The translations under genes and the position numbers were made by a program. The notes under the pieces were generated by a model. It searched no databases, was not told the DNA's origin, and worked only from the letters and a program-made list of their open reading frames with translations. Source: an uncultured Alphaproteobacteria bacterium (GTDB lineage: Bacteria; Pseudomonadota; Alphaproteobacteria; UBA2966). Taken from it: a stretch of 64,000 bases of DNA. The stretch spans positions 744,001 to 808,000 of the forward strand of contig OY282368.1 in assembly GCA_958295725.1 (NCBI GenBank), read 5' to 3'. Below are positions 8,916-32,986 of the stretch, piece after piece. Every line of letters begins with the position of its first letter. Position 1 is the stretch's first letter.

Positions 8916-8957
8916 CTCGTCGTCCCTGATGGTCAGCTCGTCGTCCCTGATGGTCAG
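8916..8957. repeat. 21-bp perfect tandem duplication inside the surface-protein gene
   Basis: The 21-base unit is present twice head to tail (8916-8936 and 8937-8957). In the protein it doubles the motif LTIRDDE. It sits at the end of the last Calx-beta repeat and keeps the frame, suggesting replication slippage. Confidence 0.85.
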
Positions 8958-9097
8958 CGACGCTCCGGTGACCGTGCCCGCGCCCTGGCTGTTCGCGGCC
9001 GTGCCCGTCACCGTCACCGTCTTGTCCTCGGCCGCGTCCACATCGTTATCCACCGCGGTGATCGTCGCCGTGTCCGCGCTCGTCGTCGAACCCGCCG

Positions 9098-10443: not shown

Positions 10444-10460
10444 GGCTGTGTTGATGAATT
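10444..10460 (+). repeat. left inverted repeat of the IS5-family element
   Basis: GGCTGTGTTGATGAATT matches the reverse complement of the other end at 14 of 17 positions. The flanking TA is the target duplication. Confidence 0.88.
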
Positions 10461-14560: not shown

Positions 14561-14674
14561 GAGGATCGATGACCCCGGGAGAATTCGTTTCGCGGCGGAG
14601 GGGGCCCGTGTCACGTCCCGCCGCCGTGCGCCCCGGTGGAGTTCCATCCGCCGGGGTTGGCCGAGGAGACTCGA

Positions 14675-14686
14675 CACGACGTCGTG
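14675..14686. promoter_or_regulatory. 12-bp perfect palindrome upstream of the TRAP operon
   Basis: CACGACGTCGTG is a perfect palindrome 32 bases before the ATG of the TAXI protein. Its position suits an operator, but no matching regulator is encoded next to it. Confidence 0.3.
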
Positions 14687-14718
14687 ACACCAACCTTTGA
14701 AATGGAGGACTGTGTAAA

Positions 14719-15699
14719 ATGAAACGTATCGCATTGACCGCGGCCGCCGTGGCCCTGGCCGGGGGCGCCTTCGTGGCGGCCGAGGCGCCGGTGGCGGAGG
14801 CGCAGCAGAAGTTCGTCACGATCGGCACGGGTGGCGTGACCGGCGTGTACTACCCCACGGGCGGGGCGATCTGCCGTCTCGTCAACAAGGACCGCAAGCG
14901 GCACGGCATCCGCTGCTCGGTGGAGAGCACGGGCGGCTCGGTCTACAACCTCAACACCATCCGTGCCGGCGAGCTCGACATGGGCGTGGCGCAGTCGGAC
15001 TGGCAGTATCACGCCTATCACGGCACCAGCAAATTCAAGGACGCCGGTCCGTTCAAGGAGCTGAGGGCCGTCTTCTCCGTCCATCCCGAGCCGTTCACGG
15101 TGGTCGCCCGAGCCGACTCCGGGGTCATGGATATCATGGACCTCAAGGGGAAGCGCGTGAACATCGGCAACCCGGGTTCCGGTCAGCGCGGTACCATGGA
15201 GGTCGTGATGGCCGCTCTGGGATGGGACAAGGGCGCCTTCATGCTCGCGTCCGAGCTGAAGTCGGCGGAGCAGTCCAAGGCGCTGTGCGACAACAAGATC
15301 GACGCCATGGTCTTCACGGTCGGCCACCCCTCGGGGTCGATCAAGGAAGCCACGACGTCGTGCGACAGCGTTCTCGTGTCGGTCAAGGGCGCCGCCATCG
15401 ACAAGCTCGTGATGGACAACGACTACTACCGGACGGCGACCATCCCCGGCGGGATGTATCGCGGCTCCGATAGCGACGTCCAGACCTTCGGTGTCGGCGC
15501 GACCTTCGTGTCGTCGACGGCGACGTCCGCCGATGTCGTGTACGAGGTCGTCAAGGCCGTGTTCGAGAACTTCGACGACTTCCGCAAGCTCCATCCGGCC
15601 TTCAGGCACCTCCAGAAGGCCCAGATGGCCAAGGACGGTCTCTCCGCGCCCCTCCACGACGGCGCGGCGAAGTACTACAAGGAAGCTGGCCTGATGTAG
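14719..15699 (+). CDS. TAXI family TRAP transporter solute-binding protein
   Basis: This 326-residue periplasmic binding protein belongs to the TAXI type. A signal peptide of about 28 residues ends APVAEA. The mature protein opens with the typical [25 protein letters not shown], followed by the family-like [28 protein letters not shown] proteins bind mostly carboxylates and deliver them to a fused TRAP permease, which follows here after a 16-bp hairpin. The start is supported by GGAGGA eight bases upstream. The gene is single-copy and intact. Ligand identity is not determined by sequence. Confidence 0.93.
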
Positions 15700-15707
15700 T
15701 CGCGTCG

Positions 15708-15742
15708 GGCGTCGGGACGTCCCCCGGGGACGTCCCGACGCC
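15708..15742 (+). promoter_or_regulatory. 16-bp perfect hairpin between binding-protein and permease genes
   Basis: The arms 15708-15723 and 15727-15742 pair perfectly (GGCGTCGGGACGTCCC and its complement) around a three-base loop. No T-run follows, so it is less likely a strong terminator than an mRNA-stabilising or attenuating structure. Such a structure would let more binding protein than permease be made. Confidence 0.7.
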
Positions 15743-15769
15743 GCCCGGCTCTTGCCACGGAGGCCGGAA

Positions 15770-18361
15770 ATGAACGATCGGAACGGCGGTTCCGAACCCG
15801 CGGAGGAGCATGCCCTCCAGGACATGATCGCGGAGGCCGATACCGGTGTGCGCGCGCCGGGCGGCCTTCCGGCCAAGGTCCTCTTCGGCGTGCCTCTCGT
15901 CTGGTCGCTGTTCCAGCTGTGGTACGCCTCGCCGCTGCCGTTCATGCTCGGGTTCGGCGTTCTCAATGACACCGAGGCGCGCGCGATCCACCTCGCGTTC
16001 TCGATCTTCCTGACCTTCGCTGCCTATCCGGCGCTGAAGCGCTCGCCGCGGCATCGCGTCCCGGTCCAGGACTGGGCGTTCGCCTTCGTCGGGGCCTTCG
16101 CCGCGGCGTACCTGTATCTCTTCTACGAGGCGTTGTCCGACCGGTCCGGCGCGCCCACGACGGTGGATCTCGTCGTCGCCGTGGCGGGCATGATTCTCCT
16201 CCTGGAGGCCACGAGACGCGCCTTGGGGCCGCCGCTCATGGCGGTGGCCAGCGTGTTCCTCGTCTACACGTTCTTCGGTCCCTGGATGCCGGACGTGATC
16301 GCGCACAAGGGCGCGTCGCTCTCCAAGGCGATGTCGCACCAGTGGTTGTCGACGGAGGGCGTGTTCGGCATCGCGCTGGGAGTCTCGACGAGCTTCGTGT
16401 TCCTGTTCGTGCTTTTCGGGGCATTGCTCGACAAGGCGGGAGCCGGCGGGTACTTCATCCGCGTCGCGTTCTCCCTCCTGGGTCACATGCGCGGGGGGCC
16501 GGCCAAGGCCGCCGTGGTGTCGTCCGGCATGACGGGCCTGATCTCGGGCTCCTCGATCGCCAACGTGGTGACCACGGGCACGTTCACGATCCCGCTGATG
16601 AAGCGGGTCGGATTCCCGGCCGAGAAGGCCGGCGCCGTCGAGGTCGCGTCGTCGACCAACGGCCAGCTGACGCCGCCGATCATGGGCGCCGCCGCGTTCC
16701 TCATGGTGGAATACGTGGGCGTTTCCTACGTCGACGTCATCAAGCACGCCTTCCTGCCGGCGATCATCTCCTACATCGCCCTGGTCTACATCGTGCACCT
16801 GGAAGCGGCGAAGGCGGACATGCGGGGCCTTCCGCGCCGTTACGAATCGACGCTGGCCGGGACGCTGCTGGCCTTCGTCATGACCGTTATCGGCCTGATC
16901 GTCCTGTCGGGCGCCGTGTACTACGGCATGGGCTGGGTCAAGACGGCGTTCGGGGCGGCGTCGCCGTGGATCGCGGCGGTTCTGACCGTGGTCGCGTATG
17001 TCGGACTGGCCTGGTACGGCTCCCGGTTCCCGGCCGGGGCGGACCCTCACGCGGAGATCGTGGAACTGCCGCCGCCGGGCCCGACGATCAAGTCCGGTCT
17101 CCATTACCTGCTGCCGGTCGTCGTGCTGGTCTGGTGTCTGGTGGTGGAGCGTTTCTCCCCGGGCCTGTCCGCCTTCTGGGCGACGGTGTTCATGATCTTC
17201 ATCGTCGTCACCCAGCGGCCGTTGACGGCCTGTTTCCGGCGGGACCGGGACCTGGGCGCGGCGGCGCGCCGGGGGTGGGACGAGTTGCTGGCCGGCCTCG
17301 TGGGCGGCGCCCGCAACATGATCGGCATCGGCGTCGCGACGGCGGCGGCCGGCATCGTCGTCGGCACGGTCACCCTGACCGGCATCGGTTTGGTGATGAC
17401 CGAGTTCGTCGAATTTATCTCCGGCGGCAATCTCGTCCTGATGCTCGTGTTCACGGCGATCATCAGCCTGATCCTGGGCATGGGCCTGCCGACGACGGCG
17501 AACTACATCGTCGTCTCGACCCTGATGGCGCCGGTGATCGTCACGCTGGGGGCGCAATCCGGCCTGATCGTGCCGCTCATCGCGGTGCACCTGTTCGTCT
17601 TCTACTTCGGCATCCTCGCGGACGACACGCCGCCCGTGGGACTCGCGGCGTTCGCCGCCGCCGCGATATCCGGCGGCGACCCGATCAGGACGGGTCTCCA
17701 GGGGTTCACCTACGACATCCGGACGGCCATCCTGCCGTTCCTGTTCATTTTCAACACCGAGTTGCTGATGATCGGGATCACGAGCTGGTACCACTTCCTC
17801 GTCGTGGTCGTCGCATCGGTGCTGGCGATGCTGGTGTTCGCCGCGGCCACCCAAGGCTTCTTCCTGGTCAGGAGCAGGTTGTGGGAGTCCCTGGCCCTGG
17901 TGCTCGTGGCGTTCACCCTGTTCCGGCCGGGGTTCTGGTGGGACATGGTCTACCCGCCGGTCGAGGTCGTCCCGGCGACGCGGATCGAGGCGATCGCCGA
18001 GGGCCTGCCCGCCGACGCCGGCCTTCGGATCGACGCCGAGGGCGAGACCCTGGACGGCGACCGGGTCGGCAAGCTCGTGGTGCTGCCGCTCGGGGCCGGG
18101 GCCGCCGGCGCGGAGCGTCTGAAGGAGGCCGGGATCGAGGTCCGGACCGGGGACGGCGGAGTCTTCGTCGACAATCTGGTGTTCGGTAGCCCGGCCGAAC
18201 TGGCGGGCCTGGACTTCGACTGGGAGATCAAGGGCATCCACGTGGAGGTGGAGCGCCCGCCCAAGCAGTTGATGTTCGCGCCGGCGCTCGTCCTGCTGGG
18301 GCTCGTCGTCCTGTCGCAGCGCCGCCGGCGCGAGGCGTCGGCGTCGACGACCGCCCGATAA
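15770..18361 (+). CDS. TRAP transporter fused permease with C-terminal DUF3394-like domain
   Basis: This large inner-membrane protein (863 residues) fuses the small DctQ-like and large DctM-like TRAP subunits. Many hydrophobic helices are visible. Conserved permease stretches include LISGSSIANVVTTGTFTIP and GMGLPTTANYIVVSTLMAP. After the last main helices comes a soluble segment (about 735-835) with a PDZ-like stretch GSPAELAGLDF and then a final helix, as in TRAP permeases with DUF3394. It uses ion gradients to import the ligand bound by the TAXI protein. The ATG at 15770 follows ACGGAGG; the family's usual length fits. The universal stress protein starts 11 bases after the stop. Confidence 0.93.
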   Translation: MNDRNGGSEPAEEHALQDMIAEADTGVRAPGGLPAKVLFGVPLVWSLFQLWYASPLPFMLGFGVLNDTEARAIHLAFSIFLTFAAYPALKRSPRHRVPVQDWAFAFVGAFAAAYLYLFYEALSDRSGAPTTVDLVVAVAGMILLLEATRRALGPPLMAVASVFLVYTFFGPWMPDVIAHKGASLSKAMSHQWLSTEGVFGIALGVSTSFVFLFVLFGALLDKAGAGGYFIRVAFSLLGHMRGGPAKAAVVSSGMTGLISGSSIANVVTTGTFTIPLMKRVGFPAEKAGAVEVASSTNGQLTPPIMGAAAFLMVEYVGVSYVDVIKHAFLPAIISYIALVYIVHLEAAKADMRGLPRRYESTLAGTLLAFVMTVIGLIVLSGAVYYGMGWVKTAFGAASPWIAAVLTVVAYVGLAWYGSRFPAGADPHAEIVELPPPGPTIKSGLHYLLPVVVLVWCLVVERFSPGLSAFWATVFMIFIVVTQRPLTACFRRDRDLGAAARRGWDELLAGLVGGARNMIGIGVATAAAGIVVGTVTLTGIGLVMTEFVEFISGGNLVLMLVFTAIISLILGMGLPTTANYIVVSTLMAPVIVTLGAQSGLIVPLIAVHLFVFYFGILADDTPPVGLAAFAAAAISGGDPIRTGLQGFTYDIRTAILPFLFIFNTELLMIGITSWYHFLVVVVASVLAMLVFAAATQGFFLVRSRLWESLALVLVAFTLFRPGFWWDMVYPPVEVVPATRIEAIAEGLPADAGLRIDAEGETLDGDRVGKLVVLPLGAGAAGAERLKEAGIEVRTGDGGVFVDNLVFGSPAELAGLDFDWEIKGIHVEVERPPKQLMFAPALVLLGLVVLSQRRRREASASTTAR

Positions 18362-18372
18362 GGAGGTTCGCG

Positions 18373-18816
18373 ATGTACGACGACATCCTGCTTCCCGTCG
18401 ATCTCGGCGACGAGTCCTCGTGGCGCGAGGCGTTGCCCGCGGCCCTGGAGCTCCGCCGGTCGCCCGACGCGAGGCTGCACGTGATGACCGTCGTGCCCGG
18501 CATGGGTTCGGCCTGGGTCGCCGGGTTCTTCCCCGACGGCTTCGAGGAGAAGGCGCTGGAGAAGGCGAACGCCGACATGGCGGCCTTCGTCGCCGGGAAC
18601 GTTCCCGACGGCGTCGCGGCGCGGACGATCGTCGCCAGCGGCGCGATCTACGAGCGGATCCTCGAAGCGGCGGAGAAGGTCGGCGCCGACCTGATCGTCA
18701 TGGCGTCGCACCGGCCCGGGTTCCGGGATTATCTGCTCGGGCCGAACGCCGCGCGGGTCGTCAGGCACGCGCCGGTGTCGGTCATGATCGTCCGCGAGCG
18801 CGCCGACCGGTCGTGA
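18373..18816 (+). CDS. universal stress protein (UspA family)
   Basis: This single UspA domain of 147 residues starts MYDDILLPVDLGDESSW and carries the ATP-binding signature GADLIVMASHRPGFRDYLLGPNAARVVRHAPVSVMIV in conserved order (G-2x-G-9x-G(S/N) variant: the second glycine region reads LLGPNA). AAGGAGG lies just upstream. It closes the TRAP operon. In other TRAP systems (TeaD next to TeaABC) such a protein binds ATP and modulates transport, and a similar role is likely here by analogy. Confidence 0.88.
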   Translation: MYDDILLPVDLGDESSWREALPAALELRRSPDARLHVMTVVPGMGSAWVAGFFPDGFEEKALEKANADMAAFVAGNVPDGVAARTIVASGAIYERILEAAEKVGADLIVMASHRPGFRDYLLGPNAARVVRHAPVSVMIVRERADRS

Positions 18817-18846
18817 GACTCGCGGACGGGAGGCGATACGCTTCTT

Positions 18847-20100
18847 CTACGGCGCCGCCTTCCGGTCGGATGTCGAACGGGCCGCGCGCCGGGCGATAGC
18901 CTTCCGGTCCCAGCCCAGCCAGTCCCGCAGCGCCTCCTCGGCGTGCTGGTCGAGCAGGGGCGGCGGCGTCATCCCGGCTTGGGCGCCCGACATGAGCCAG
19001 GGCGGGCCCACGACCCGGACTTCGCCGGACGCCGGGTGGTCCAGCGCGCGGACCAGGCCGCGAAAGGCGACCTGCTCGTCCTCCAGCGCCTCGAGATAGG
19101 TGTTCACGCGGGCGTAGGGCAGCCGTTCCGCCTCCAGGGCCTCGACGCACTCGCCGTAGGTGAGCTCCGAGACGCGCCCGGCGGTCCGCCCGTCGAGAAA
19201 CTCCCGCGCGGCGGCGCGGCCCGCGCTTCCGGCGTACCGGGGATCGTCGGCGAGATCGTCGAAGCCCATGGCCCGGCAGAAACGGGGCCAGTGGCGGTCG
19301 TTCTGGACGATCAGCGAGAGGTGGACGCCGTCCCTGGTCCTGTAGGTGTTGGCGGGGACGCGCATGGGGTTCTGGTTGCCGTGGCGGCCGGGGTTGCGCC
19401 CGGCCTGCAAGGACTCGCCCATGCGGGGGCCCAGCGCCGCGAGCGTCGCGTCCTGCATGGAGACGTCGATGTATCGCCCCTTGCCGTCGCGCCTCACGGC
19501 ATGGAGGGCGCCGACGATGGCGTAGGCCGAGAACATGCCCGCCATGACGTCGCAGAGCGGCGCGCCCACCATCGTCGGCGGGGCGTCGGGCTCGCCGTTG
19601 ACCGTCATCAGGCCGGTGACCGCCTGGATCATGGGATCGAGTGCGTAGCGGTCCCGCGACGGCCCGGTCTGGCCGAAGCCCGCCAGGCTGCAATAGACCA
19701 GCCCGGGGTTGAGCGGCCGCAGGTCCTCCCAACCCATACCGAGGCGGCGGGCCGTTCCCGGGGAGAAGTTCTCCACGACGACGTCGGCGACCTTTGCGAG
19801 GTCCCGCCCGATGGCGCGGTCGCCGGGGTCCTTGAGATCGAGGGCGATGCTCTTCTTCGAGCGGTTGTTGGCGTAGAAGTAGTCCTCGTGGTTCTCGCGG
19901 CCGGGATAACGCCCCACGGATCGCAGATCGTCGCCGCGTCCGGGCGGCTCGATCTTGAGGACCTCGGCGCCGAGATCGGCGAGCATCAGCGTCGCGTAAG
20001 GTCCCGCGATGACCTGCGTCAGGTCGACGACCCGGAACCCGGCGAGGGGCGGCCGGTCGTCCGGGTCCTCCGCCGCGGCGGTCATGCCCTCCCGCGACAC
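18847..20100 (-). CDS. CaiB/BaiF family (class III) CoA-transferase
   Basis: This 417-residue CoA-transferase moves CoA between carboxylic acids. Family landmarks are GFRVVDLTQVIAGPYATLMLAD at the N-terminus, LGAEVLKIEPPGRGDD, VVVENFSPGTARRLGM, and ALDPMIQAVTG containing the likely catalytic Asp155. The start is given as the GTG at 20100; an ATG at 20085 (MTAAAEDP) is possible, though GGGAGG lies very close to it. The gene lies 12 bases after a crotonase-fold gene on the same strand, suggesting a short acyl-CoA pathway in which this enzyme activates the acid. Substrate unknown. Confidence 0.9.
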   Translation of the reverse strand: MSREGMTAAAEDPDDRPPLAGFRVVDLTQVIAGPYATLMLADLGAEVLKIEPPGRGDDLRSVGRYPGRENHEDYFYANNRSKKSIALDLKDPGDRAIGRDLAKVADVVVENFSPGTARRLGMGWEDLRPLNPGLVYCSLAGFGQTGPSRDRYALDPMIQAVTGLMTVNGEPDAPPTMVGAPLCDVMAGMFSAYAIVGALHAVRRDGKGRYIDVSMQDATLAALGPRMGESLQAGRNPGRHGNQNPMRVPANTYRTRDGVHLSLIVQNDRHWPRFCRAMGFDDLADDPRYAGSAGRAAAREFLDGRTAGRVSELTYGECVEALEAERLPYARVNTYLEALEDEQVAFRGLVRALDHPASGEVRVVGPPWLMSGAQAGMTPPPLLDQHAEEALRDWLGWDRKAIARRAARSTSDRKAAP

Positions 20101-20112
20101 GGCACGGCGGCG

Positions 20113-20901
20113 CTACTCGCCTCGCCAGACGGGATCGCGCTTCTCCCTGAAGGCGAGGATGCCTTCCTTGGAGTCCTCGCTCTCCAGAACCCGGTCGGCG
20201 ATCTGGCGGGCGAGCCGCAGACGCGCTTCCAGGGGGAGTTCGAGGCACCGGCGGGCGGCCTCCTTCAGGCCCTGCACGGCGAGCGGCGCGTTCGCGAGGA
20301 TCTCGCCCGCCCAGCGCTCGGCCGTCTCCATGAGCTCGTCCTTGCCGCCCTTGACGATCTCGTTGCAGAGACCGAGACGCCAGGCTTCCTCCGGCAATAT
20401 CTGCTTGCCGCGCAGCAGGTAGCCCATCGCCGTCGGCCAGACCATCGCGTGCGCCCCCTGCGTCGGACCCGACACCGACGAGATGCCGCGTTTGACCTGG
20501 GGCCAGCCGATACTGGCGTTCTCGGTCATCAGCACGATGTCCGAGCTCAGCGCGAAGCCCGCGCCCTGGGCCATGCAGGCGCCCTGAAGCGCCACGATGA
20601 TCGGCTTGTAGACGGTCCGCATGTACACGAAGAGCTCGTCGTTGGAATGGACGGTGCCGTCGTCGGTGTCGGGATCCACCTGCTCGAGGAGGTCCTTTCC
20701 GGCGCAGAAGATCTTGCCCTCGGCGTCGATGATCGCGAGCCAGATATCCGGATTGGTCTTGATGTCGAACAGGGCGTTCTGGATTTCCTTACGCATCTGG
20801 CGGGTGAGCGCGTTCGCCTTCTCGGGCCGCTTCAACGTGATGCGCGCGATGTGGTCCTCGACCTCGTAGCTCGTCTGTTCGCGGTTGATGATCAGTGCCA
20901 T
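20113..20901 (-). CDS. crotonase-fold (enoyl-CoA hydratase/isomerase family) protein lacking both hydratase glutamates
   Basis: This 262-residue crotonase has the oxyanion-hole segments KIFCAGKDLLEQ (residues 63-74) and ACMAQGAGFALSSDIVL (108-124). In classical enoyl-CoA hydratase two glutamates act in catalysis. By motif alignment the first (P-E in GxPE) is Gln135 here (SIGWPQVKRG) and the second falls at Gly160 (AMGYLLRGKQI). Simple hydratase activity is therefore unlikely; other crotonase reactions (isomerase, decarboxylase, hydrolase) are possible. It is probably co-transcribed with the downstream CoA-transferase. The start is clear: MALIINREQ is the first in-frame codon after the gap. 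Confidence 0.88.
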   Translation of the reverse strand: MALIINREQTSYEVEDHIARITLKRPEKANALTRQMRKEIQNALFDIKTNPDIWLAIIDAEGKIFCAGKDLLEQVDPDTDDGTVHSNDELFVYMRTVYKPIIVALQGACMAQGAGFALSSDIVLMTENASIGWPQVKRGISSVSGPTQGAHAMVWPTAMGYLLRGKQILPEEAWRLGLCNEIVKGGKDELMETAERWAGEILANAPLAVQGLKEAARRCLELPLEARLRLARQIADRVLESEDSKEGILAFREKRDPVWRGE

Positions 20902-20977
20902 GCTTCGTCCTTTCCGTCGCCCGGGCGCGGGCGGAGCGCACTTCCCGTACCGGGGCGGTCGGACCGGGTCAAGTCCC

Positions 20978-21004
20978 TGTCCTGGTTCGATACGTATGAA
21001 ACTG
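20978..21004 (+). repeat. degenerate IS481-like terminal repeat
   Basis: TGTCCTGGTTC is followed by a sequence resembling the ends at 49330-49354 and 37561-37585 but with several changes (GATACGTATGAAAC against AGGACATATGAGAC). No transposase is next to it, so it looks like a solo relic. Confidence 0.5.
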
Positions 21005-21031
21005 CCGGCCCGCGGGCCGCGGGCCGGGACG

Positions 21032-22123
21032 TCACGGCCGACGCGCCGCGCCCTTCGCCACGCGGAGGCGGCGCAACAGCTCGCCGTGGTCGGGGGGGAT
21101 CCGGTACGGCGCGCAGCGCGCGATGTCTTCCTCGAGGCTCTCCCACTGGAGGATGTCGAGCTGGTCGGCGGTGAACCGCTCGAAGACGCGGGCGTCGCCC
21201 ATCTGCGCGACCGGGTTGCAGGACCCGCGCGCGAAGGCCACCGTCGGTGCGGTCTCGGGCGTGAGGACGTGTTCCAGGAACGCCAGCGCGGGCGCCGTGT
21301 CGCCCCCGTGGTCGACGACCGACGTCACCTCCAGGAACACGATGGCGCCCTTGCCGTTGACCGGCCCCGAGCGCGGGGTGACGGCGCGGATGCGGCGGTG
21401 GCCGTCCCGGCGGGCGGGAGAGGCGGTGTACATGCCGCCGGACAGGTAGAACCCGATGGCGCCGTCGACCAGCGCCCGGTTCATCTCGATGTGATCGGCG
21501 GTGACCGCCGCCGCGCCCGCGAACCATTGCCGGGCCTTGGCCTCGAAGGCGTCCAGTTGCTCCGCCGGGAGCGCGTCGAAGGGATCGAGGCCGGCGGCGA
21601 AACAGATGTGGAAGATATTGAAGTCGTCGTATTCGAGGACTCCGTACCGTCCCCTGTTGGCCGGGTCGTCCGCCAGCAGGAACCCTTCCGATTCCGCCGT
21701 GTCCCGCGCGATCCGGCCTTCGTCGATCACGATGTTGAACGGGCCGAAGCGCTGGCAGACGCCGATGATGTCGTTCCCGTCCCGGCTTCGGGTCCACCGG
21801 TAGAGGTCGTCGAATTGCGGCAGCAGGCGGTCGTACTCGTCCGCGAACCGGTCCCGGGGGAGCGCGCGGATTGCGCCCGCCGGATAAAGCGTCTCGCGCG
21901 CGAACGGGTTGTTCAGATTGACGACGTCCCAGGACGAGCGCTCCGGTCCGACGACGCGGGCCGCCGTATCCGCGTCGGAAACGATCGTCTCGGCGCGGAC
22001 GGAATAGCCGTGCCGTTCCGTGAACGGCTCGATGACGTTCGGGTCCTCGTAGCCTTCCCAGCAGAGGATGTTGAGATCGGCGCGCTCCGGCATCGGGGGA
22101 TCGGGCGTTCGTGGCGTCGGCAT
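21032..22123 (-). CDS. PotD-like extracellular solute-binding protein without a signal peptide
   Basis: The protein (363 residues) looks like a spermidine/putrescine-type (family 1) binding protein: ADLNILCWEGYEDPNVIEPF at the start of the fold, SSWDVVNLNNPF, NFVxxL-like later parts, and DHGGDTAPALAFLEHVLTPE. Such proteins carry an N-terminal signal, but here only about 15 polar residues (MPTPRTPDPPMPERA) precede the fold. The 37 bases before the ATG leave no room for one, because the upstream gene ends there. No permease or ATPase gene is adjacent. It may be cytoplasmic, acting as a ligand sensor or enzyme, or the leader may have been lost. Family confidence is good; role unknown. Confidence 0.75.
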   Translation of the reverse strand: MPTPRTPDPPMPERADLNILCWEGYEDPNVIEPFTERHGYSVRAETIVSDADTAARVVGPERSSWDVVNLNNPFARETLYPAGAIRALPRDRFADEYDRLLPQFDDLYRWTRSRDGNDIIGVCQRFGPFNIVIDEGRIARDTAESEGFLLADDPANRGRYGVLEYDDFNIFHICFAAGLDPFDALPAEQLDAFEAKARQWFAGAAAVTADHIEMNRALVDGAIGFYLSGGMYTASPARRDGHRRIRAVTPRSGPVNGKGAIVFLEVTSVVDHGGDTAPALAFLEHVLTPETAPTVAFARGSCNPVAQMGDARVFERFTADQLDILQWESLEEDIARCAPYRIPPDHGELLRRLRVAKGAARRP

Positions 22124-22160
22124 CTGGGGGCGGGAGGCCGGTATCGGACGGTCCGGCCCC

Positions 22161-22568
22161 TTACGCCTCCCGTCTTTCGCGGCGCGCTATGCGCCAGTGA
22201 GGGAGGAAAAGCATCAGGGAGATCAGGCCGAAAATGGCGCAACGGATGATGCTCTGTATGCCGTCGCGCCGTTCCCGCTCCAGCGCTTCCAGGAACGCCT
22301 GCCGCCGCCGTTCCGCGATTTCCGCGTCCGAGGGCGGTCCATTGGCCCGCCGCCCGCTCTCGTCTCCCGGGAAACGGCTCCACTCGGACAGGTGCTCCCG
22401 GTAGGCGTCGTCGGACTGGTAGCGCTGGTATTCGTAGGCGGGCATCGTCAGCTTCGGCCACGTCGCCTGGAGAATGCCGTAGACCGCGATGCCCCCGGAG
22501 ATGAGCAGCGGGACGATCAGCAGACCGCAAACGGCGAGGGCGTAGACGTGGAGCGCAGATTTTTTCAT
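22161..22568 (-). CDS. small two-helix membrane protein of unknown function
   Basis: This 135-residue protein has a membrane helix at about residues 8-32 (VYALAVCGLLIVPLLISGG), a polar middle with Tyr-rich YEYQRYQSDDAYREHL, a charged helix (RRRQAFLEALERERRDG) and a second membrane helix near 108-125 (CAIFGLISLMLFLPHW). Both termini are probably cytoplasmic. I do not recognise a family. It lies between the rhodanese and the PotD-like gene on the same strand, 75 and 37 bases away, so it may be a membrane partner of one of them. Confidence 0.7.
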   Translation of the reverse strand: MKKSALHVYALAVCGLLIVPLLISGGIAVYGILQATWPKLTMPAYEYQRYQSDDAYREHLSEWSRFPGDESGRRANGPPSDAEIAERRRQAFLEALERERRDGIQSIIRCAIFGLISLMLFLPHWRIARRERREA

Positions 22569-22643
22569 GGCGGGCGCATTTCCGGGTTGGCGCGCGGGTA
22601 GCGGTCGTCGCGGACCGTCTCGATAGTCTCCCGTGCGTCGCGG

Positions 22644-24248
22644 CTATGCCGGGCCGGGGCGGACGATGTCGAACCGCGCGTCGCCGTCGCGCTCCACCTG
22701 CGCGACGAGGCCGGTCTCCCAGGCGAGGTAATCCCGCATGGCCCGCTCGACGTCCGTGTCCCGGTCGTAGGCGCTCGGGTAGTGGTCGTCTGGTTCCTGC
22801 GCCATGTTCTCGAAGCCGCCGGTCAGCGGATAGCCGAGATCGCGCCACGCGAGGGTTCCTCCCGTCAGGACCTTGACCGGCGTGTCCGTCGCGGCCTCCG
22901 CTTCCGGCGCCGCCAGCCGGGCCAGGGTCCCGTCCTCCGATGCCAGAACGAGGAGGGAAGTCGCTCGGACCTTCGGCAGAGTGTCCGGGAGCCTGGCGCG
23001 CGTCGAGTACCACGCGCCGGGAACGTGTCCGGCCTTGTAGGCATGACTGTCGGACAGGTCGACCACGGCCGCGTCGCCGGCGTCGAGCGCGCGCTTCAGG
23101 CCCGCGGGCGAAATCTCCGCGGCTTCGATCTCGTCCAGGCCGGGGATCTCGGGGGAATGGGCACCGGCGACGAGGTCGCCGGACCCGAGCCCGTCCCGGA
23201 GAACCACCGTGTCCCGCCAGCCCATCTGCGACAGCCACGACGCGGTCATCGTGGCGCGAACGGCCGTATCGTCGATCAGCACGACCCGCGCGCCCCGGGT
23301 GGCCATGTACGAATCCGTGCTCTGGACGAGCTGGCCGCCCGGCGCGTGACGCGAGCCGCGCAGGTGGCCTCCGGCATACTCCTCCGGGTGGCGCACGTCG
23401 AGGAGATAGAGGGTGCGGGAGTCGGCCTCCCGGCGCCACTCCTCGAGCGTGTCGAGGCCGATACGGCTCACGCCGAATCGCGCGGCGACGTCGTCCGCCA
23501 TGGCCCGCGCCCGCTCCGCTTCGCCGGCGCCGGGCTCGGGCGCGAGGCGCGTCGCTCCGCGCTCGAGCTCGAGGCCGGCGAGACGCCATCCCATGGTTCC
23601 GTTGCGCAGCGCCCTGACCGGGTTGGGGAGGCCGGCGTTGATCAGCGACTGGGCCCCGATGATGCTCCGCGTCCGCCCGGCGCAGTTGACGATGACCTGC
23701 GTTGCCGGGTTCGGGACGAGCGTGCGCGCCCGGTAGGCGAGTTCGGCCCCGGGCACGTTGATCGCGCCGGGAACGGTCATGTGCAGGTACTCGTCGAGGG
23801 GGCGCGAATCCAGCACGATCACGTCCTCGCTGGCGGCGCGCTTGGCGCACAGCTCTTCCGCGGTGATGTCGGGCGTTCCGTCGATATGCTCGACGAATTC
23901 GCCGAAGGCCTTGCTCGGCACCGACACGCCGCTGAACAGCTCGTAGCCGGCGTCGCTCCAGCCCTGCACGCCGCCTTCCAGCACGGCCACGTCGGAATAC
24001 CCGAACCCTTCCAGCCTGTCCGCCGCCCGGTCGGCGAGTCCTTCGCCCGCGTCCGTGAGCACGATGCGCGTGCCGCGGCGCGGAACGAGGTCGCGAATAC
24101 GCAATTCGAGATGGCTCAGCGGCAGGCAGCTCGAGAAGAAGAGGTGGGCGCGACCGAAGCCGCCTTGCTCGCGCGCGTCCAGAAGCGCGAGTTCTCCGCC
24201 GTCGTTGATCAGCGCCTTGAGGCTGGGCGCGCTTATGCTCCGGGGCAT
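22644..24248 (-). CDS. four-domain rhodanese-like sulfurtransferase with a single active-site cysteine
   Basis: The protein has four rhodanese domains in 534 residues, each with the LLDAR/VLDSR/LLDVR/VVDLS strand and a GG-x-x-GW/GG-TLAW closing motif. Only domain two has an active-loop cysteine: Cys189 in QVIVNCAGRTRS. The matching loops read LTDAGEG (domain 1), LIDDTAV (domain 3) and LASEDGT (domain 4), so those domains are probably structural or binding. Rhodaneses carry sulfane sulfur as a persulfide. The gene begins 22 bases after a cysteine-dioxygenase-like cupin, which supports a role in sulfur-compound breakdown. A start at MPRSIS fits the domain boundary. Confidence 0.88.
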   Translation of the reverse strand: MPRSISAPSLKALINDGGELALLDAREQGGFGRAHLFFSSCLPLSHLELRIRDLVPRRGTRIVLTDAGEGLADRAADRLEGFGYSDVAVLEGGVQGWSDAGYELFSGVSVPSKAFGEFVEHIDGTPDITAEELCAKRAASEDVIVLDSRPLDEYLHMTVPGAINVPGAELAYRARTLVPNPATQVIVNCAGRTRSIIGAQSLINAGLPNPVRALRNGTMGWRLAGLELERGATRLAPEPGAGEAERARAMADDVAARFGVSRIGLDTLEEWRREADSRTLYLLDVRHPEEYAGGHLRGSRHAPGGQLVQSTDSYMATRGARVVLIDDTAVRATMTASWLSQMGWRDTVVLRDGLGSGDLVAGAHSPEIPGLDEIEAAEISPAGLKRALDAGDAAVVDLSDSHAYKAGHVPGAWYSTRARLPDTLPKVRATSLLVLASEDGTLARLAAPEAEAATDTPVKVLTGGTLAWRDLGYPLTGGFENMAQEPDDHYPSAYDRDTDVERAMRDYLAWETGLVAQVERDGDARFDIVRPGPA

Positions 24249-24270
24249 GGTCCGGCGTCCGTCCGGGCCG

Positions 24271-24879
24271 CTACGCCGTCGCTCCGGACCCGCCGCCGTA
24301 GCGGTCGGCCGTGCCGGCTTCCAGATCGAAGCCGAGCCGGTCGGGAATGGCGTCCAGCGACTTCCCGTACATGTGGAGATGGAGGGTCGGCGTGTCGCCC
24401 GTGACCGCGATGCTGTGGATGTCGTCCGGCATCAACGCCACGCCCACGCCCGGCCTCACCACGGTCTCGTCCGTCTGTTTCAGGGTTGCCTTGCCGGGGT
24501 CGGCGCCGTCGTCCGTGCGCTCGTAGAACCGGTTGATCTCCTCGCCTTCGACCGCCGCGACGATGGCCCATGTCGTGTGGTTGTGCGGGTTGGTGAGCTT
24601 TCCGGGCCTGATGGAGTTCATGTACAGCGCGAAGCGCTTGTCGGCGTCCTCCGACAGGAGGTAGCGGATATTGGAGGTATCGCCTTCCGGCGGCGGGAAA
24701 TCGCTCTTGGGAAAGAGCTCCTTCCGCGTGGCGAGTTTGTAGAGCTCCTCGCGCATGTCGTTCAATGCGTCGCGTGTGACGCCGCGCGTTCTCTCGATCT
24801 CACGCACGCGCGCCAGCATGTCGGCGACCGCGGCGGCGCGTCGGTCCGTGATCGAGGCGTTCGGCTCGGTGACGGTCAT
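24271..24879 (-). CDS. cysteine-dioxygenase-like cupin protein
   Basis: This 202-residue cupin carries the metal-binding histidines of the cysteine dioxygenase family: His99 and His101 in NPHNHTTWAIVAAVEGEE, and His155 in PDDIHSIAV. A helical N-terminus (residues 15-60) precedes the barrel. Enzymes of this group add oxygen to thiols such as cysteine or 3-mercaptopropionate; which one is not clear. The ATG at 24879 follows GGGGAGCGG. It heads a probable operon with the rhodanese, consistent with thiol oxidation and sulfur transfer. The long AT-rich region upstream probably holds its promoter. Confidence 0.82.
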   Translation of the reverse strand: MTVTEPNASITDRRAAAVADMLARVREIERTRGVTRDALNDMREELYKLATRKELFPKSDFPPPEGDTSNIRYLLSEDADKRFALYMNSIRPGKLTNPHNHTTWAIVAAVEGEEINRFYERTDDGADPGKATLKQTDETVVRPGVGVALMPDDIHSIAVTGDTPTLHLHMYGKSLDAIPDRLGFDLEAGTADRYGGGSGATA

Positions 24880-25099
24880 GGCCCGCTCCCCGGAAAGGAT
24901 CGTCGTTCGGCTCACTATATCGCCATGTCCGGGCCCGCGCAGCACCGTTCGGCCGTGCGATGAGGTCGTATCCGCATGACGGCTGGAGGCGGCCGCCACG
25001 GTGGCCGTCGTCGCCTTTTCCGGCGCGGGCGTCTGGCCGCGGCGGTGGCGGCATTGCCGCGCATGGCGATGTCTCTGTTCCCGTTCGAGGAACAACATA

Positions 25100-25134
25100 G
25101 GAATTTTCTTGGCGCGAGTCAACAGGAAAATTCC
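25100..25134. promoter_or_regulatory. inverted repeat, candidate operator
   Basis: GGAATTTTC (25100-25108) and GAAAATTCC (25126-25134) form perfect 9-bp arms around 17 bases. The site lies about 220 bases before the cupin start in an AT-rich patch. It could be bound by a dimeric regulator; which one is unknown. Confidence 0.4.
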
Positions 25135-25302
25135 ATTATAGAGAAAATTTTTCCAATCGTATGAGTGTGGACGCCGGTCGCATGTCCATGCCGCGTGTCT
25201 GTGCGGATCCTCTTCCTGATAATGCCTTCGATATACCATATATTGATTTACGTGGCCATATACTACAATATCTTGTGTTTTTGGCCGGAATGTCACATGC
25301 GG

Positions 25303-25451
25303 CCCGACGGTGTGCGGATTGTGCGATTCCGATCCGGCGTCGCGCCGTGTTGTCGATACTCCTCCCCCCTTGGCGGGGGAAAGGTCGGGAAGGTGGACCG
25401 CGACCTCGCGGCGCGCGGGGCTCGTGCCCCGACGGTGTGCGGATTGTGCGA
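25303..25451. repeat. pair of 24-bp direct repeats
   Basis: The same 24 bases (CCCGACGGTGTGCGGATTGT plus GCGA) occur at 25303-25326 and 25428-25451, 125 bases apart, on either side of a REP-like palindrome. This pattern suggests a duplicated mobile intergenic element. Confidence 0.65.
25360..25396. repeat. GC-rich intergenic palindromic repeat (REP-like), copy 2
   Basis: The sequence CTCCCCCC, TTGGCGGGGGAAAGG, TCGGGAAGG matches the copy at 6246-6284 in plan, with small changes. It sits between the two 24-bp repeats. Confidence 0.6.
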
Positions 25452-25606
25452 ATCGCCACGCCGGGACGGCGCCCCGCGCGACACGGCGCGGCGGGCCGAT
25501 GACCCGCATGGGGGGCCTTCTCCGAACCGGGTCGTGTCGACAGGCGTTGAAGCGTCGGCGCGAATCGTGTGTAAAAAGGGCGTGCGGAGCGCGGGGAGGG
25601 ACCTGG

Positions 25607-25975
25607 ATGCCGATCGTGCGCGTGGATATCCCGGAGGGGTATACGGATGCCCACAAGGAACGGCTGCGGCGGGGGATCAGGCGGGCGGTCGACGAGGCGC
25701 TGGCTCCCGCCCGGGAGGAGAGGTTTCCCGCGACCGGGAAATGGGTCTACGTCTCCGTTCGCGAGGCCTTCGGCGAGATCGGGGACGGACTGCCCACGGT
25801 GACCGTCGACATCGCGCCCGGCCTGCCCCAGGCGCGGAAGGACCTGTGCGCCAGACTGATTCGCGACGTGTTCGAAACCTACATGAATACCCGGGACGTT
25901 TACGTCCTGCTGAGGACGACGGAGGCCGCGGACCACCTTACCGGGGCCGACGCTCCGCCCGAACGGCGGCCGTGA
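25607..25975 (+). CDS. tautomerase superfamily protein
   Basis: The product (122 residues) starts MPIVRVDIPEGYT, so removal of Met exposes the catalytic Pro of the 4-oxalocrotonate tautomerase/MIF superfamily. It is longer than the 62-residue type and appears to hold two beta-alpha-beta units (the second around GLPTVTVDIAPGLPQARKDLCARLIRDVF). GGGAGGG lies seven bases before the ATG. These enzymes convert keto and enol forms in aromatic or halogenated compound breakdown. The neighbouring amidohydrolase, 56 bases downstream, may act in the same pathway. Substrate unknown. Confidence 0.8.
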   Translation: MPIVRVDIPEGYTDAHKERLRRGIRRAVDEALAPAREERFPATGKWVYVSVREAFGEIGDGLPTVTVDIAPGLPQARKDLCARLIRDVFETYMNTRDVYVLLRTTEAADHLTGADAPPERRP

Positions 25976-26031
25976 CCGCCCGGACCCGGGAATCCCGATG
26001 CCCACCGCGCCACCCCGAACGGAACGCCGTC

Positions 26032-26946
26032 ATGTCTGAAATGTCCGACCTGGAGATCGTCGATGCGCATCATCACTTCTGGGACCTCGACGCCCTCCAC
26101 TATCCGTGGCTGACGGATCGACCGTTGGCGAGCTTTCCGTTCGGCGACTACGACGTCCTGCGGCGCGACTATCTGCCCGAGGACTACTGGCGGGACGCGG
26201 GAGGGCACAACGTCGTCAAGACGGTCCATGTCGAGGCGGAGCGGCACGTCGGCGACCCGCTGGACGAGACGAACTGGCTGACGCGCCTCCACGATAAGGC
26301 CGGCGTGCCGAACGCGGTCGTGGCGTGGGCGCCACTGGCCCGCCCCGAGACCGGGGAGGTCCTCGCCCGGCAGGCCGAAAATCCCCTGGTCAAGGGTATT
26401 CGGACCAAGCCCAGGGTTTCCGGTTCGCCGGGCGAATCGATCGCGGGGGAACCGGGCACCATGCAGGACGACGCATGGCTCGGCGATCTGGCCCTGTTCC
26501 CGAAATACGGGCTGTCCTGGGACATGCGGGTGCCGTACTGGCATCTCGAGGAAGCCGCCGAGGTCGCCCGCGCGCTGCCCGACGTCCGCGCCGTCCTCAA
26601 TCACGCGGGTCTTCCGTGGGACCGCGGGGAGGAGGGCCTGAAACGCTGGCGGCGGGGGATGGAAGCCGTCGCCGCGTGCCCGAACGTCACGACCAAGATT
26701 TCCTTCCTGCTGGTGCCGGGAAGCGCTTGGAGCGACGACGGGAACGCGCGCGTCATCCGCGAGACCATCGAGGTCTTCGGCGTCGACCGCTGCATGTTCG
26801 CCAGCAATTACCCCGTCGACCGGATGGGAGCGTCGTTCGACGCCATCTACTCGCTGTTCAAGCGGACGACGGCCGACCTTCCCGTCGAGGACCGGCGCAA
26901 GCTGTTCGCCGGGAACGCCACGCGAATCTATCGGATCGACGCCTGA
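26032..26946 (+). CDS. amidohydrolase family 2 protein (COG3618-like)
   Basis: This TIM-barrel metal-dependent hydrolase of 304 residues shows the N-terminal metal motif DAHHHFWDLD (residues 11-20), later His in VKTVHVEAERHVGDP, the core KYGLSWDMRVPYWHLEE and the C-terminal Asp/Asn region CMFASNYPVDRMG. It resembles lactonase-type enzymes such as L-fuconolactone hydrolases and 2-pyrone-4,6-dicarboxylate hydrolases. The start at 26032 fits the domain; upstream in-frame sequence is not related. With the tautomerase it suggests ring-cleavage product or sugar-acid metabolism. Confidence 0.85.
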   Translation: MSEMSDLEIVDAHHHFWDLDALHYPWLTDRPLASFPFGDYDVLRRDYLPEDYWRDAGGHNVVKTVHVEAERHVGDPLDETNWLTRLHDKAGVPNAVVAWAPLARPETGEVLARQAENPLVKGIRTKPRVSGSPGESIAGEPGTMQDDAWLGDLALFPKYGLSWDMRVPYWHLEEAAEVARALPDVRAVLNHAGLPWDRGEEGLKRWRRGMEAVAACPNVTTKISFLLVPGSAWSDDGNARVIRETIEVFGVDRCMFASNYPVDRMGASFDAIYSLFKRTTADLPVEDRRKLFAGNATRIYRIDA

Positions 26947-27050
26947 AACGGCCCGGACGCCGGGAAGGGGGTGGATCGCGGTTCCGTAACCCGGCGAGGT
27001 AATGGGGGGAGGGCGCCGTGACCGAACCGCAAGTCATCCCCGACGACAGC

Positions 27051-27067
27051 TGTCCTGGTTCAGGACA
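27051..27067 (+). repeat. solo IS481-like terminal repeat next to the suf promoter
   Basis: TGTCCTGGTTCAGGACA, itself a palindrome around GTT, matches the first 17 bases of the relic ends at 49330 and (inverted) 37569. No transposase lies nearby. It ends six bases before the -35 box of the suf promoter. Confidence 0.7.
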
Positions 27068-27073
27068 CATAAC

Positions 27074-27102
27074 TTGACAAATTCACTCCGCTTTCCTATG
27101 TA
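27074..27102 (+). promoter_or_regulatory. sigma-70-type promoter of the suf operon
   Basis: TTGACA at 27074-27079 and TATGTA at 27097-27102 are separated by exactly 17 bases. The -35 box is a perfect consensus. The first gene of the operon starts at 27150. The encoded Rrf2 protein probably acts here, but I do not see an unambiguous operator. Confidence 0.75.
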
Positions 27103-27149
27103 CCTGTTGGAACCCTTGGGAAACGATCATCTGGCACCGGACGCCCGCC

Positions 27150-27625
27150 ATGTTGAGACTCGGTCGTATGACGGATTACGCCGTGATGGTGATGGGCCAC
27201 ATGGCCCACCACCACGGTGAGTTGCGGACGACGTCGGACGTCGTTCTGTCCACCGGTCTACCGGCGCCGACCGTCAGCAAGCTGCTTCATCGCCTGGCGG
27301 AGCTGGAACTGCTCACGGCCGTTCGCGGCCGGAACGGCGGCTACAGGATGGACCGTCCCGCGACGGACATCTCCGTCGCCGAGATCATCTCCGGATTCGA
27401 GGGGCCCGTCGCCCTGACCGATTGCCTGCCCGCGGGGGGCGGGCTCTGCGATTTCGAGGACCGCTGCCGGGTGGGCGGACGCTGGGTCGTCGTCGCCGAG
27501 GCCGTTCAGCGGGTTCTCGACGACCTGACCCTGGCGGACATGCTCCTCCACGCGCCGCGCGGCGCTGGCGGATCGGCCGGGACGGGCGACCGGGTTCCGG
27601 TATCCGGGCCCATGGAGATCGGACC

Positions 27626-27629
<4 letters not shown>
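27150..27629 (+). CDS. Rrf2 family regulator of the SUF operon
   Basis: This winged-helix regulator of 159 residues starts [20 protein letters not shown] helix-turn-helix lies near residues 26-50 ([20 protein letters not shown]), followed by the family wing [14 protein letters not shown]. Three cysteines, Cys92, Cys100 and Cys106, have the spacing seen in IscR-type regulators that bind a [2Fe-2S] cluster. It can therefore sense Fe-S supply and control the operon it leads. Its stop overlaps the sufB start (ATGA). The C-terminal 20 residues are a variable tail. Confidence 0.9.
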
Positions 27630-29086
<1,457 letters not shown>

Positions 29087-29120
29087 GCCGCGCGATCCCC
29101 CGCACGGAACGGAAGAAGGA

Positions 29121-29873
29121 ATGCTGGAGATCCGAGACCTGCATGTCCGCGTGGACGAGCGGGAGGTCCTGAAGGGGATCGATCTGACCATCGCGCGCGG
29201 CGAAGTCCATGCCGTGATGGGTCCGAACGGTTCCGGGAAGAGTACGCTCGCCTATGCGCTGGCCGGACGGGACGGGTACGAGGTGACCGGAGGGACCGTC
29301 CGGTACCGGGGCGCCGACCTGCTGGCCCTCTCCATCGAGGAGCGCGCGCGCGAAGGGCTCTTTCTCGCCTTCCAGTACCCGGTCGAGATCCCGGGGGTCG
29401 CGGGCACGACGTTCCTGCGCGCGGCCGTGAACGCGCGGCGCAGGCACCGGGGCGAACGGGAGCTCGATGCCATGCAGTTCGTGAAGTTCGTGCGGGGAAA
29501 GCAGGCCGAGCTGAATATCCCGGACGACATGCTGAAGCGCCCGGTGAACGTCGGATTCTCCGGCGGCGAGAAGAAGCGGAACGAGGTCTTCCAGATGGCA
29601 CTGCTCGAGCCGACGTTCGCGGTGCTCGACGAGACCGATTCGGGCCTCGACATCGACGCCTTGAAGATGGTCGCCAACGGCGTCAACGCCTTGCGGGAAC
29701 CGGCCCGGTCGATGCTGGTGATCACGCATTACCAGCGCCTTCTCGACTACATCGTGCCCGACCGCGTTCATGTCCTCGCCCATGGCCGGATCGTCAAATC
29801 CGGGGGCAGGGAACTGGCGCTGGAGTTGGAGAGGGAAGGGTACGGCGCGCTGACGGCCGCCGAGGCCGCCTGA
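29121..29873 (+). CDS. sufC: Fe-S cluster assembly ATPase SufC
   Basis: SufC is the ABC-type ATPase of the SufBCD complex, 250 residues. Walker A is GPNGSGKST at residues 34-42, the signature VGFSGGEKKRNEV, and Walker B FAVLDETDSGLDID, the last being diagnostic for SufC. His in VITHYQRLLDYI completes the site. GGAAGAAGGA directly precedes the ATG at 29121. ATP binding dimerises SufC and opens the SufB-SufD interface. It lies between sufB and sufD in the usual order. Confidence 0.97.
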   Translation: MLEIRDLHVRVDEREVLKGIDLTIARGEVHAVMGPNGSGKSTLAYALAGRDGYEVTGGTVRYRGADLLALSIEERAREGLFLAFQYPVEIPGVAGTTFLRAAVNARRRHRGERELDAMQFVKFVRGKQAELNIPDDMLKRPVNVGFSGGEKKRNEVFQMALLEPTFAVLDETDSGLDIDALKMVANGVNALREPARSMLVITHYQRLLDYIVPDRVHVLAHGRIVKSGGRELALELEREGYGALTAAEAA

Positions 29874-29897
29874 AGCCGGGGAATGGGAGACCGGGAC

Positions 29898-31244
29898 ATG
29901 TCGCGCCGGATCGTAGCCGAGTTCCCGTTCGTCGAGCGTTTCGACGAGGTGGCCGCGGGACTGCCCGGTGCCGGGCTCGACTGGCTCGACGCGCTGCGCC
30001 GCGACTCCCTGGACGCTTTCAACCGGGTCGCCCTGCCGTCGACGCGCGTCGAGGCCTGGAAGTACACCAACCTCAAGGACCTCGCGAAAACGCCCTTCGA
30101 CATCGCGGCGTCGCCGGAAGGGGACTCGCCGTTCGATCTCGATGGCATCCGCGCGGGCGGACCGGGCGCCGGGCGCCGGCTGGTGTTCGTGAACGGCCGG
30201 TTCGACGCCGGCCGGTCCCGCACGGGGCCGCCGTCCGAGGGTCTTGCCGTGCTGAGCCTGGGCGAGGCGCTGCGGAGCCGGGCGCGGGTCGTGCGCCCGC
30301 ACATCGAACGCCTGTCCTCGTTGGAGGACGAGGCGTTTCTGGCCCTCAACACGGCGTTCATGATGGACGGTTGCGTGATCGTCGCAGGTGACGGCGTGAC
30401 GATCGACCGGCCGGTCGAAACGGTCTTCGTGAACGATGCGCGGTCGCCGACCAGCGTCCATCCGCGGAATCTCGTCGTCGCCGGAGCCGGCAGCCGGATC
30501 GCCTTGACCGAGACGCACGTCGGCGCCGGGCCGTCGGAGTACTGGTCCAACCCGGTGACGGAGATCGTCGTCGCCGCGTCCGCGTCCGTCGTTCACCGGA
30601 AGATCCAGCGCGAGTCCCGGCGCGCCTATCACCTGGCGAACACCCGCGTGACGTTGGCGGAACGGGGGACGTATCGCGCTTTTCTGATGTCGGTGGGGGC
30701 CGGGCTCTCCCGGTGCGAGATCGACGCCACGCTGGAGGGGGAAGGCGCCGATTGCCGGCTCGACGGGGCCTATCTCGCGCGGGACCGCCAGCACACCGAT
30801 ATCACGACCCGGGTCACCCACGCCGGGTCCGGGGGCAGTAGCCGGCAGGCGTTCAGGGGCGTGCTCGACGGCCGGAGCCGCGGGGTGTTCCAGGGGCGGG
30901 TCTCTGTCCGTCCGGACGCCCAGCGCACCGACGGCCATCAGCTCAACAAGACCCTTCTCCTCTCGAACGACGCGGAGATCGACACGAAGCCGGAACTGGA
31001 GATCTACGCCGACGACGTGAAGTGCAGCCACGGCGCCACGGCCGGTCATCTGGACGAACTCGAGCTGCTTTACCTTCGCTCGCGCGGCCTCGGCGCCGAG
31101 GAGGCGCGCCGGGTGCTGATCAGGGCTTTCGTGGCCGAAGCCGTGGAGTCGGTCGAGGACGGACCGTTCCGGGACCGTCTCGACGCCGAGATCGACGACT
31201 GGCTGTCGCGCGAGCCGCCGGCCGACGCGGAGGCGGGCGCATGA
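29898..31244 (+). CDS. sufD: Fe-S cluster assembly protein SufD
   Basis: SufD is the partner of SufB in the SufBC2D scaffold; 448 residues. The N-terminal helical part carries the family motif RVEAWKYTNLKDL near residue 50, and the C-terminal beta-helix part ends in DDVKCSHGATAGHLDELELLYLRSRGL, with the conserved Cys-Ser-His used at the cluster site. I chose the ATG at 29898 because GGGAG stands nine bases upstream; an ATG at 29883 in the same frame is an alternative. Its stop overlaps the sufS start (ATGA). Confidence 0.95.
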   Translation: MSRRIVAEFPFVERFDEVAAGLPGAGLDWLDALRRDSLDAFNRVALPSTRVEAWKYTNLKDLAKTPFDIAASPEGDSPFDLDGIRAGGPGAGRRLVFVNGRFDAGRSRTGPPSEGLAVLSLGEALRSRARVVRPHIERLSSLEDEAFLALNTAFMMDGCVIVAGDGVTIDRPVETVFVNDARSPTSVHPRNLVVAGAGSRIALTETHVGAGPSEYWSNPVTEIVVAASASVVHRKIQRESRRAYHLANTRVTLAERGTYRAFLMSVGAGLSRCEIDATLEGEGADCRLDGAYLARDRQHTDITTRVTHAGSGGSSRQAFRGVLDGRSRGVFQGRVSVRPDAQRTDGHQLNKTLLLSNDAEIDTKPELEIYADDVKCSHGATAGHLDELELLYLRSRGLGAEEARRVLIRAFVAEAVESVEDGPFRDRLDAEIDDWLSREPPADAEAGA

Positions 31245-32979: not shown

Positions 32980-32986
32980 GTTCGCG

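Follow-up and report, generated by a model that had tools for sequence, protein, structure and literature searches.

The Locus and Its Surroundings

The window analyzed here comprises 64,000 nucleotides (positions 744001–808000 of contig C1) of a 3.67-Mb genome in three contigs. All four predicted open reading frames are present on the minus strand, transcribed in the order cupin, rhodanese, two-helix protein, and PotD-like protein, with intergenic gaps of 22, 75, and 37 bp:

24271..24879, minus strand: Msdo-type cupin thiol dioxygenase, 202 residues; matches the Msdo structure 8vni (PDB) with E 6.9e-53, has motifs in common with it, and is set apart from seven CDO-like rows at 100/100 in a tree
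22644..24248, minus strand: four-domain rhodanese, 534 residues; PF00581 in four stretches, with a catalytic-type cysteine (Cys189) in domain 2 only
22161..22568, minus strand: two-helix membrane protein, 135 residues, by hydropathy; no family; absent from the sister species G014
21032..22123, minus strand: leaderless PotD/PotF-like solute-binding protein, 363 residues (353 from Met11); SBP_bac_8 below cutoff, 3ttk/3ttm at E 5e-7; falls in a leaderless clade

The reading frames, Pfam, PDB, and hydropathy agree with the preliminary description, which placed four genes on one strand and assigned them these types. G014 keeps the cupin, rhodanese, and PotD-like genes in collinear order, and comparison of the window with that genome (NG86) gives dN/dS values of about 0.20, 0.24, and 0.17, respectively. 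This conserved order, together with these ratios, argues that the set of three is not a chance arrangement.

The two-helix gene is a different matter. Its product has 19-residue hydropathy peaks of 2.51 near residue 11 and 2.08 near residue 104, matches no known family in family-model searches, and is confined to its own genome (in both copies of the region), one of 15 genomes of the order. The rhodanese match in G014 is followed after 8 bases by the PotD-like match, with no gene intervening, and the stretch preceding the PotD-like start is still recognizably that of the window, so the two-helix gene is either an insertion in the window or a loss in G014. A conserved four-gene system was rejected on these grounds, as the gene has no homologue in the 14 other genomes of the order and is missing between its flanking genes in G014. 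For the same reason, the four families do not co-occur. A link between the PotD-like protein and Msdo is confined to the genus. The preliminary description had also suggested that the combination could be an undescribed system, a view that gives way on two counts: an Msdo-rhodanese neighborhood has been published (PMC5373536), and the two-helix protein occurs only in its own genome. We regard the two-helix protein as a probable local addition, without which the system would work.

Several other gene groups lie nearby, many of them named by reading of the sequence. An enoyl-CoA hydratase and family III CoA-transferase pair (18847–20901, minus strand) is directly downstream of the PotD-like gene on the same strand; such a pair lies about 4.6 kb downstream of the PotD-like gene in G013, another member of the genus (L027:5855–7913), and was not seen beside that gene in G014. 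Tautomerase-like and amidohydrolase-like genes, named by reading, stand divergently upstream of the cupin in the window (25165–26946, plus strand) and in G014 (L018:3818–5148, minus strand). Also named by reading are a TAXI-type TRAP binding protein, a fused TRAP permease, and a universal-stress-type protein (14719–18816, plus strand); an Rrf2-type regulator with SufB-like and SufC-like genes (27150–29873, plus strand); and a repetitive protein of 1398 residues with an autotransporter-like C terminus (6504–10700, minus strand). The TRAP genes could possibly provide an uptake route, unlinked to the cluster.

A collinear near-copy of window positions 14409–33407 is found on a second contig of the same genome (C2:40000–59000, L005). 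The two are 98.9% identical over 19,026 aligned columns, with 159 mismatches and 22 gaps, and the rhodanese and PotD-like genes are frameshifted in the copy on C2, which seems to be the window region assembled redundantly or with many errors.

The Thiol Dioxygenase and Its Rhodanese Partner

The closest PDB match of the cupin is mercaptosuccinate dioxygenase (8vni, E 6.9e-53), with cysteine and 3-mercaptopropionate dioxygenases following at 1.8e-8 and 1.6e-7. The motifs HNHTTW (His99 and His101) and DIHS(I) (His155) align with the same motifs in 8vni, and these histidines, which bind the metal in this family, would form the three-His iron site of a cupin. An SHY motif has been described for structurally characterized thiol dioxygenases (PMC8050391); where CDO/MDO have this motif, the window cupin has HLHMY. 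In a tree of 27 rows, the window cupin falls on the Msdo side with 8vni on a 100/100 branch, leaving seven CDO-like rows outside. The pattern H-x-H-x-Y is present in all 20 Msdo-side rows versus S-x-H-x-Y in all seven CDO-like rows, and HxHxxW is missing from two of the 20 (G998 and G855). By sequence, then, the cupin is an Msdo-type thiol dioxygenase, closer to Msdo than to CDO/MDO. Because the window genus forms its own sub-branch on the Msdo side, the substrate of this enzyme may differ from mercaptosuccinate. From homology, we expect the cupin to act on a small thiol-bearing organic carboxylate (mercaptosuccinate or an analogue), whose SH group it would oxidize to a sulfinate. As published for Msdo, and here by homology, the sulfinate would collapse to sulfite and a desulfurized carbon skeleton.

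The rhodanese scores 150.2 bits against PF00581 (cutoff 22.2) over its four stretches. Cys189, in the domain 2 loop NCAGRTRS, is present in all 12 aligned rhodaneses (the window protein and 11 Msdo-linked homologues), and the other three rhodanese loops of the window protein have no cysteine. To place this pairing in a wider context, 398 genomes of the phylum were surveyed for Msdo at E ≤ 1e-35, which returned nine places in six genomes besides the window's own. A homologous rhodanese is adjacent to Msdo or one gene away at six of the nine; at the other three, none was found in the fetched stretch, which in one case stops 1.3 kb past the cupin. At three of the six paired places, cupin and rhodanese are a single open reading frame of about 730 residues (G080, contig 93 of G566, and the second place in G745; L084:5040–7241, minus strand; L085:6670–8838, plus strand; and L086:7169–9364, plus strand). 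G566 has three Msdo places, one of them fused, and G745 has two. Named examples of the pairing on plasmids come from Caballeronia, Aminobacter, and Marinobacter. In Variovorax VAI-C, an annotated sulfurtransferase lies 3.5 kb upstream of Msdo and is not adjacent.

The enzyme pair itself is already known, as msdo of the Variovorax and Advenella clusters occurs with rhodanese and cystathionine β-lyase genes (PMC5373536). The same report finds that Advenella can grow on mercaptosuccinate without the transporter encoded beside msdo, so neighbors of msdo need not be functional parts. A fusion of a cupin thiol dioxygenase to a rhodanese, on the other hand, was not found described in the open-access full-text literature.

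What does the rhodanese contribute? With its one active-type cysteine, it would take the sulfur product onward, most likely by combining sulfane sulfur with sulfite to give thiosulfate, a step for which the persulfide dioxygenase–rhodanese fusions offer an analogy (PMC6060420). A different role has been proposed for Variovorax, in which the rhodanese would supply molybdenum cofactor for a sulfite-oxidizing molybdoenzyme and no thiosulfate would be made; PMC5373536 reports this proposed cofactor role, not thiosulfate formation. The best NCBIfam matches of the window rhodanese are MoeB/MoeZ models, all below cutoff, which fits that role, whereas the rhodanese-dioxygenase fusion at three of nine places points to joint handling of the sulfur product. 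We consider the cofactor role possible but on the unlikely side. Regardless of which role applies, the part played by the rhodanese in organic-thiol breakdown can be tested directly on the fusions; PMC5373536 brings only a proposal on this question. The suggestion that the locus is a sulfur-compound breakdown unit is borne out, by homology, for an organic sulfur compound, with an Msdo-type thiol dioxygenase and a rhodanese at its center.

The Leaderless Binding Protein

The PotD-like protein scores 21.8 bits against SBP_bac_8, under the cutoff of 27, and its profile matches the solved polyamine- and putrescine-binding proteins 3ttk and 3ttm (E 5e-7) and 1a99. Even the farthest in-frame start adds only 21 residues before the conserved Trp22, and these include no hydrophobic stretch; an upstream start giving a signal peptide, which the preliminary description had named as one observation that would overturn its proposal, was looked for on this basis and rejected. 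In G014, ATA replaces the upstream ATG, the ATG of Met11 is kept, and another 11 codons upstream the frame is closed, which places the translation start at or near Met11 (22093). The protein thus probably begins at Met11 and has 353 residues. No permease or ATPase genes lie within 1.5 kb of the gene, and within 9 kb there is only a weak ATPase match (26% identity, at 29.1–29.9 kb of the window). A protein with neither signal peptide nor permease, as originally described, is what we find, and the leader is likewise missing in all 17 members of the clade considered below.

A less remarkable account would be that this is a decayed or mis-started exported binding protein, its leader lost recently or hidden by an assembly error. 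Assembly errors do exist, as the frameshifted second copy on C2 attests, and a dying gene would not need a permease. However, substitutions between the window and G014 are mostly silent (dN 0.065, dS 0.383; dN/dS about 0.17), the ratio between the window and G013 is about 0.11, and the protein is leaderless, with the start kept, in all three species of the genus. Judged from these ratios, the gene is under purifying selection. The leaderless clade is also old, spans two classes, and has fixed residues of its own. Decay or a missed leader is consequently very improbable.

To define this clade, relatives were collected from 385 genomes of the class, 398 of the phylum, and 249 and 109 of the orders of G726 and G754, respectively, together with a further scan and a plasmid search, giving 79 proteins; G051 and G275, both with leaders, and six of the 36 places from the G726-order search, for which no loci were returned, stand outside the 79-row tree. 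A scan of viral contigs for relatives found none. A leader is present in 62 of the 79 and missing from 17, which come from 16 genomes, and one 100/100 branch separates the two groups. With three distant exported outgroups in a 34-row tree, all 15 leaderless rows used (of the 17) group together as one clade within the exported proteins, again at 100/100. The split is the same in the 20-, 79-, and 34-row trees, in which several branches were flagged by the program as long. This nesting suggests a single loss of the leader, in a clade whose 16 genomes are now found among both alpha- and gammaproteobacteria.

Other features divide along the same line. A twin-Arg-like motif was scored within a 70-residue window in 57 of 62 exported proteins versus none of 17 leaderless ones; for one exported row (G208b) lacking it there, a longer reading reveals a twin-Arg leader. 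Of the exported cases, 59 of 62 have within 1.5 kb an ATPase gene resembling that of the Agrobacterium transporter, versus one of 17 leaderless cases, and of the three exported rows without it, two have stretches that end early. In the single leaderless case (G1053), the neighbor resembles an ABC ATPase of the amino-acid type. Every leaderless protein has Phe168 and Phe263 (17/17), and every exported one has tryptophan at both positions (62/62). Cys337 is likewise fixed in the 17 versus seven of 62 exported rows. A conserved cluster of four cysteines, suggested by the first five leaderless sequences, was rejected, as only Cys337 is fixed in all 17.

Leaderless and exported proteins have in common a core of Trp22, Tyr25, Asp50, Asn69, Asn71, Gln124, Arg125, and Glu265. 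Glu265 aligns with an aspartate of a polyamine-binding protein that we take to be its amine ligand, and Arg125 and Glu265 would together suit a zwitterionic ligand. The AlphaFold model of the protein (five rows) has a pLDDT of 39.7, so cleft residues are placed here by alignment.

Some other enzymes are built on the binding-protein fold, and the PotD-like protein could be a further one, a cytosolic enzyme with Cys337 and the changed aromatic pair in its active site. The residues fixed specifically in the clade and the position of the gene at the end of catabolic gene sets would suit an enzyme. The core residues in common with exported homologues, however, suggest that ligand binding was kept, and Cys337 also occurs in the seven exported rows. 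We consider this alternative less probable.

The gene neighborhoods of the leaderless clade offer further hints. Rieske oxygenase genes lie near seven of 16 leaderless wide loci versus none of 17 exported, as do EamA transporter genes (7/16 versus 0/17), counts that favor leaderless loci because the context references (Rieske, EamA, amidase, and Sox) were drawn from those loci and count themselves, that compare stretches of different lengths, and that include several near relatives (among them G1060, G1070, and G1066). Amine-oxidase-type genes are also often near leaderless genes, and G170 and G1053 have SoxB, SoxA, and SoxG-type genes plus a Rieske gene nearby. A PAS-type histidine kinase, named by reading, divergently adjoins the leaderless gene in three related genomes, G1060, G1070, and G1066 (L164:6224–8209, L165:6127–8112, L166:2545–4530), and one is a single gene away in G997. 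Such an arrangement would fit a protein that senses substrate level inside the cell and signals it to a regulator or kinase. No regulator adjoins the PotD-like gene in the window genus, however, and most other leaderless loci have no such kinase, so a sensor of this kind seems to us a less probable alternative.

Within the window genus, G013 has an FAD oxidoreductase, a Rieske oxygenase, and an ABC-type permease just upstream of Msdo; no Rieske gene is near the cupin in the window or in G014. The PotD-like gene of G013 is at the end of a different contig from the cupin-rhodanese pair, and an operon joining the pair and the PotD-like gene across the contig break is likely. Outside the genus, the PotD-like protein is found in other catabolic neighborhoods. 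That it might be a dedicated partner of Msdo was considered and rejected: among the 13 leaderless-carrying genomes outside the genus, only G1053, G998, and G855 have an Msdo-side cupin relative, on other contigs than the leaderless gene. G754 has a CDO-like match only, also elsewhere, and in the remaining nine no cupin relative was found at the limits used.

Proposed Function and Known Systems

We favor, with a probability of roughly 0.6, a reading of the locus as an organic-thiol degradation operon with a cytosolic ligand-binding accessory protein, drawn from a clade that arose by a single loss of leader and ABC partner. The PotD-like protein, judging from the 17 member sequences, would stay in the cytosol, where it may carry, buffer, or sense a zwitterionic compound, either a substrate or an intermediate, handled by catabolic operons. 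A bolder version is rather unlikely: an ancient single loss of the leader would have given rise to a new class of cytosolic binding protein that accompanies the oxidative degradation of amino compounds, methylated or zwitterionic, and was recruited in the window genus to an operon degrading a sulfur-bearing, betaine-like compound. The genes behind the amino-compound part are the Rieske oxygenase, FAD amine-oxidase, and sarcosine-oxidase-type genes. The corresponding operon, suggested by G013 across its contig break, would consist of an amino-acid-type permease, an FAD oxidoreductase, a Rieske oxygenase, Msdo, the rhodanese, and the binding protein.

Solute-binding proteins are assumed to be extracytoplasmic, and annotation assigns them to transporters as a matter of course; we found no description of cytosolic PotD-type proteins in the open-access full-text literature. 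An old clade that keeps the binding core with neither leader nor transporter would show this fold turned to an intracellular catabolic job, and annotations in alpha- and gammaproteobacteria would then need correcting.

Of the systems known, the mercaptosuccinate cluster of Variovorax paradoxus B4 and Advenella mimigardefordensis is like the window in having an Msdo-type cupin beside a rhodanese gene. It also has a cystathionine β-lyase and, in Advenella, an amino-acid ABC transporter, whereas the window cluster has neither and instead has the leaderless PotD-like protein. Mercaptosuccinate is the substrate of those clusters but only the putative one here. The persulfide dioxygenase–rhodanese fusions of the Paraburkholderia phytofirmans and Staphylococcus aureus types likewise couple a mononuclear-iron sulfur dioxygenase to a rhodanese (PMC6060420). 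Persulfide dioxygenase, however, belongs to the metallo-β-lactamase superfamily, with two histidines and one aspartate on iron, whereas the dioxygenase of the window is a cupin associated with a four-domain rhodanese; it matches Msdo and CDO/MDO cupin structures rather than a metallo-β-lactamase-type dioxygenase domain. For the binding protein, the exported, ABC-linked ATU_RS25100 of Agrobacterium fabrum is of the same family (about 44% identity over 94% of the query) and has the core residues in common. Compared with PotD/PotF-type exported proteins, the window protein is without a Tat or Sec leader and without an ATPase or permease partner, and in their place carries the signature of its clade, Phe168, Phe263, and Cys337.
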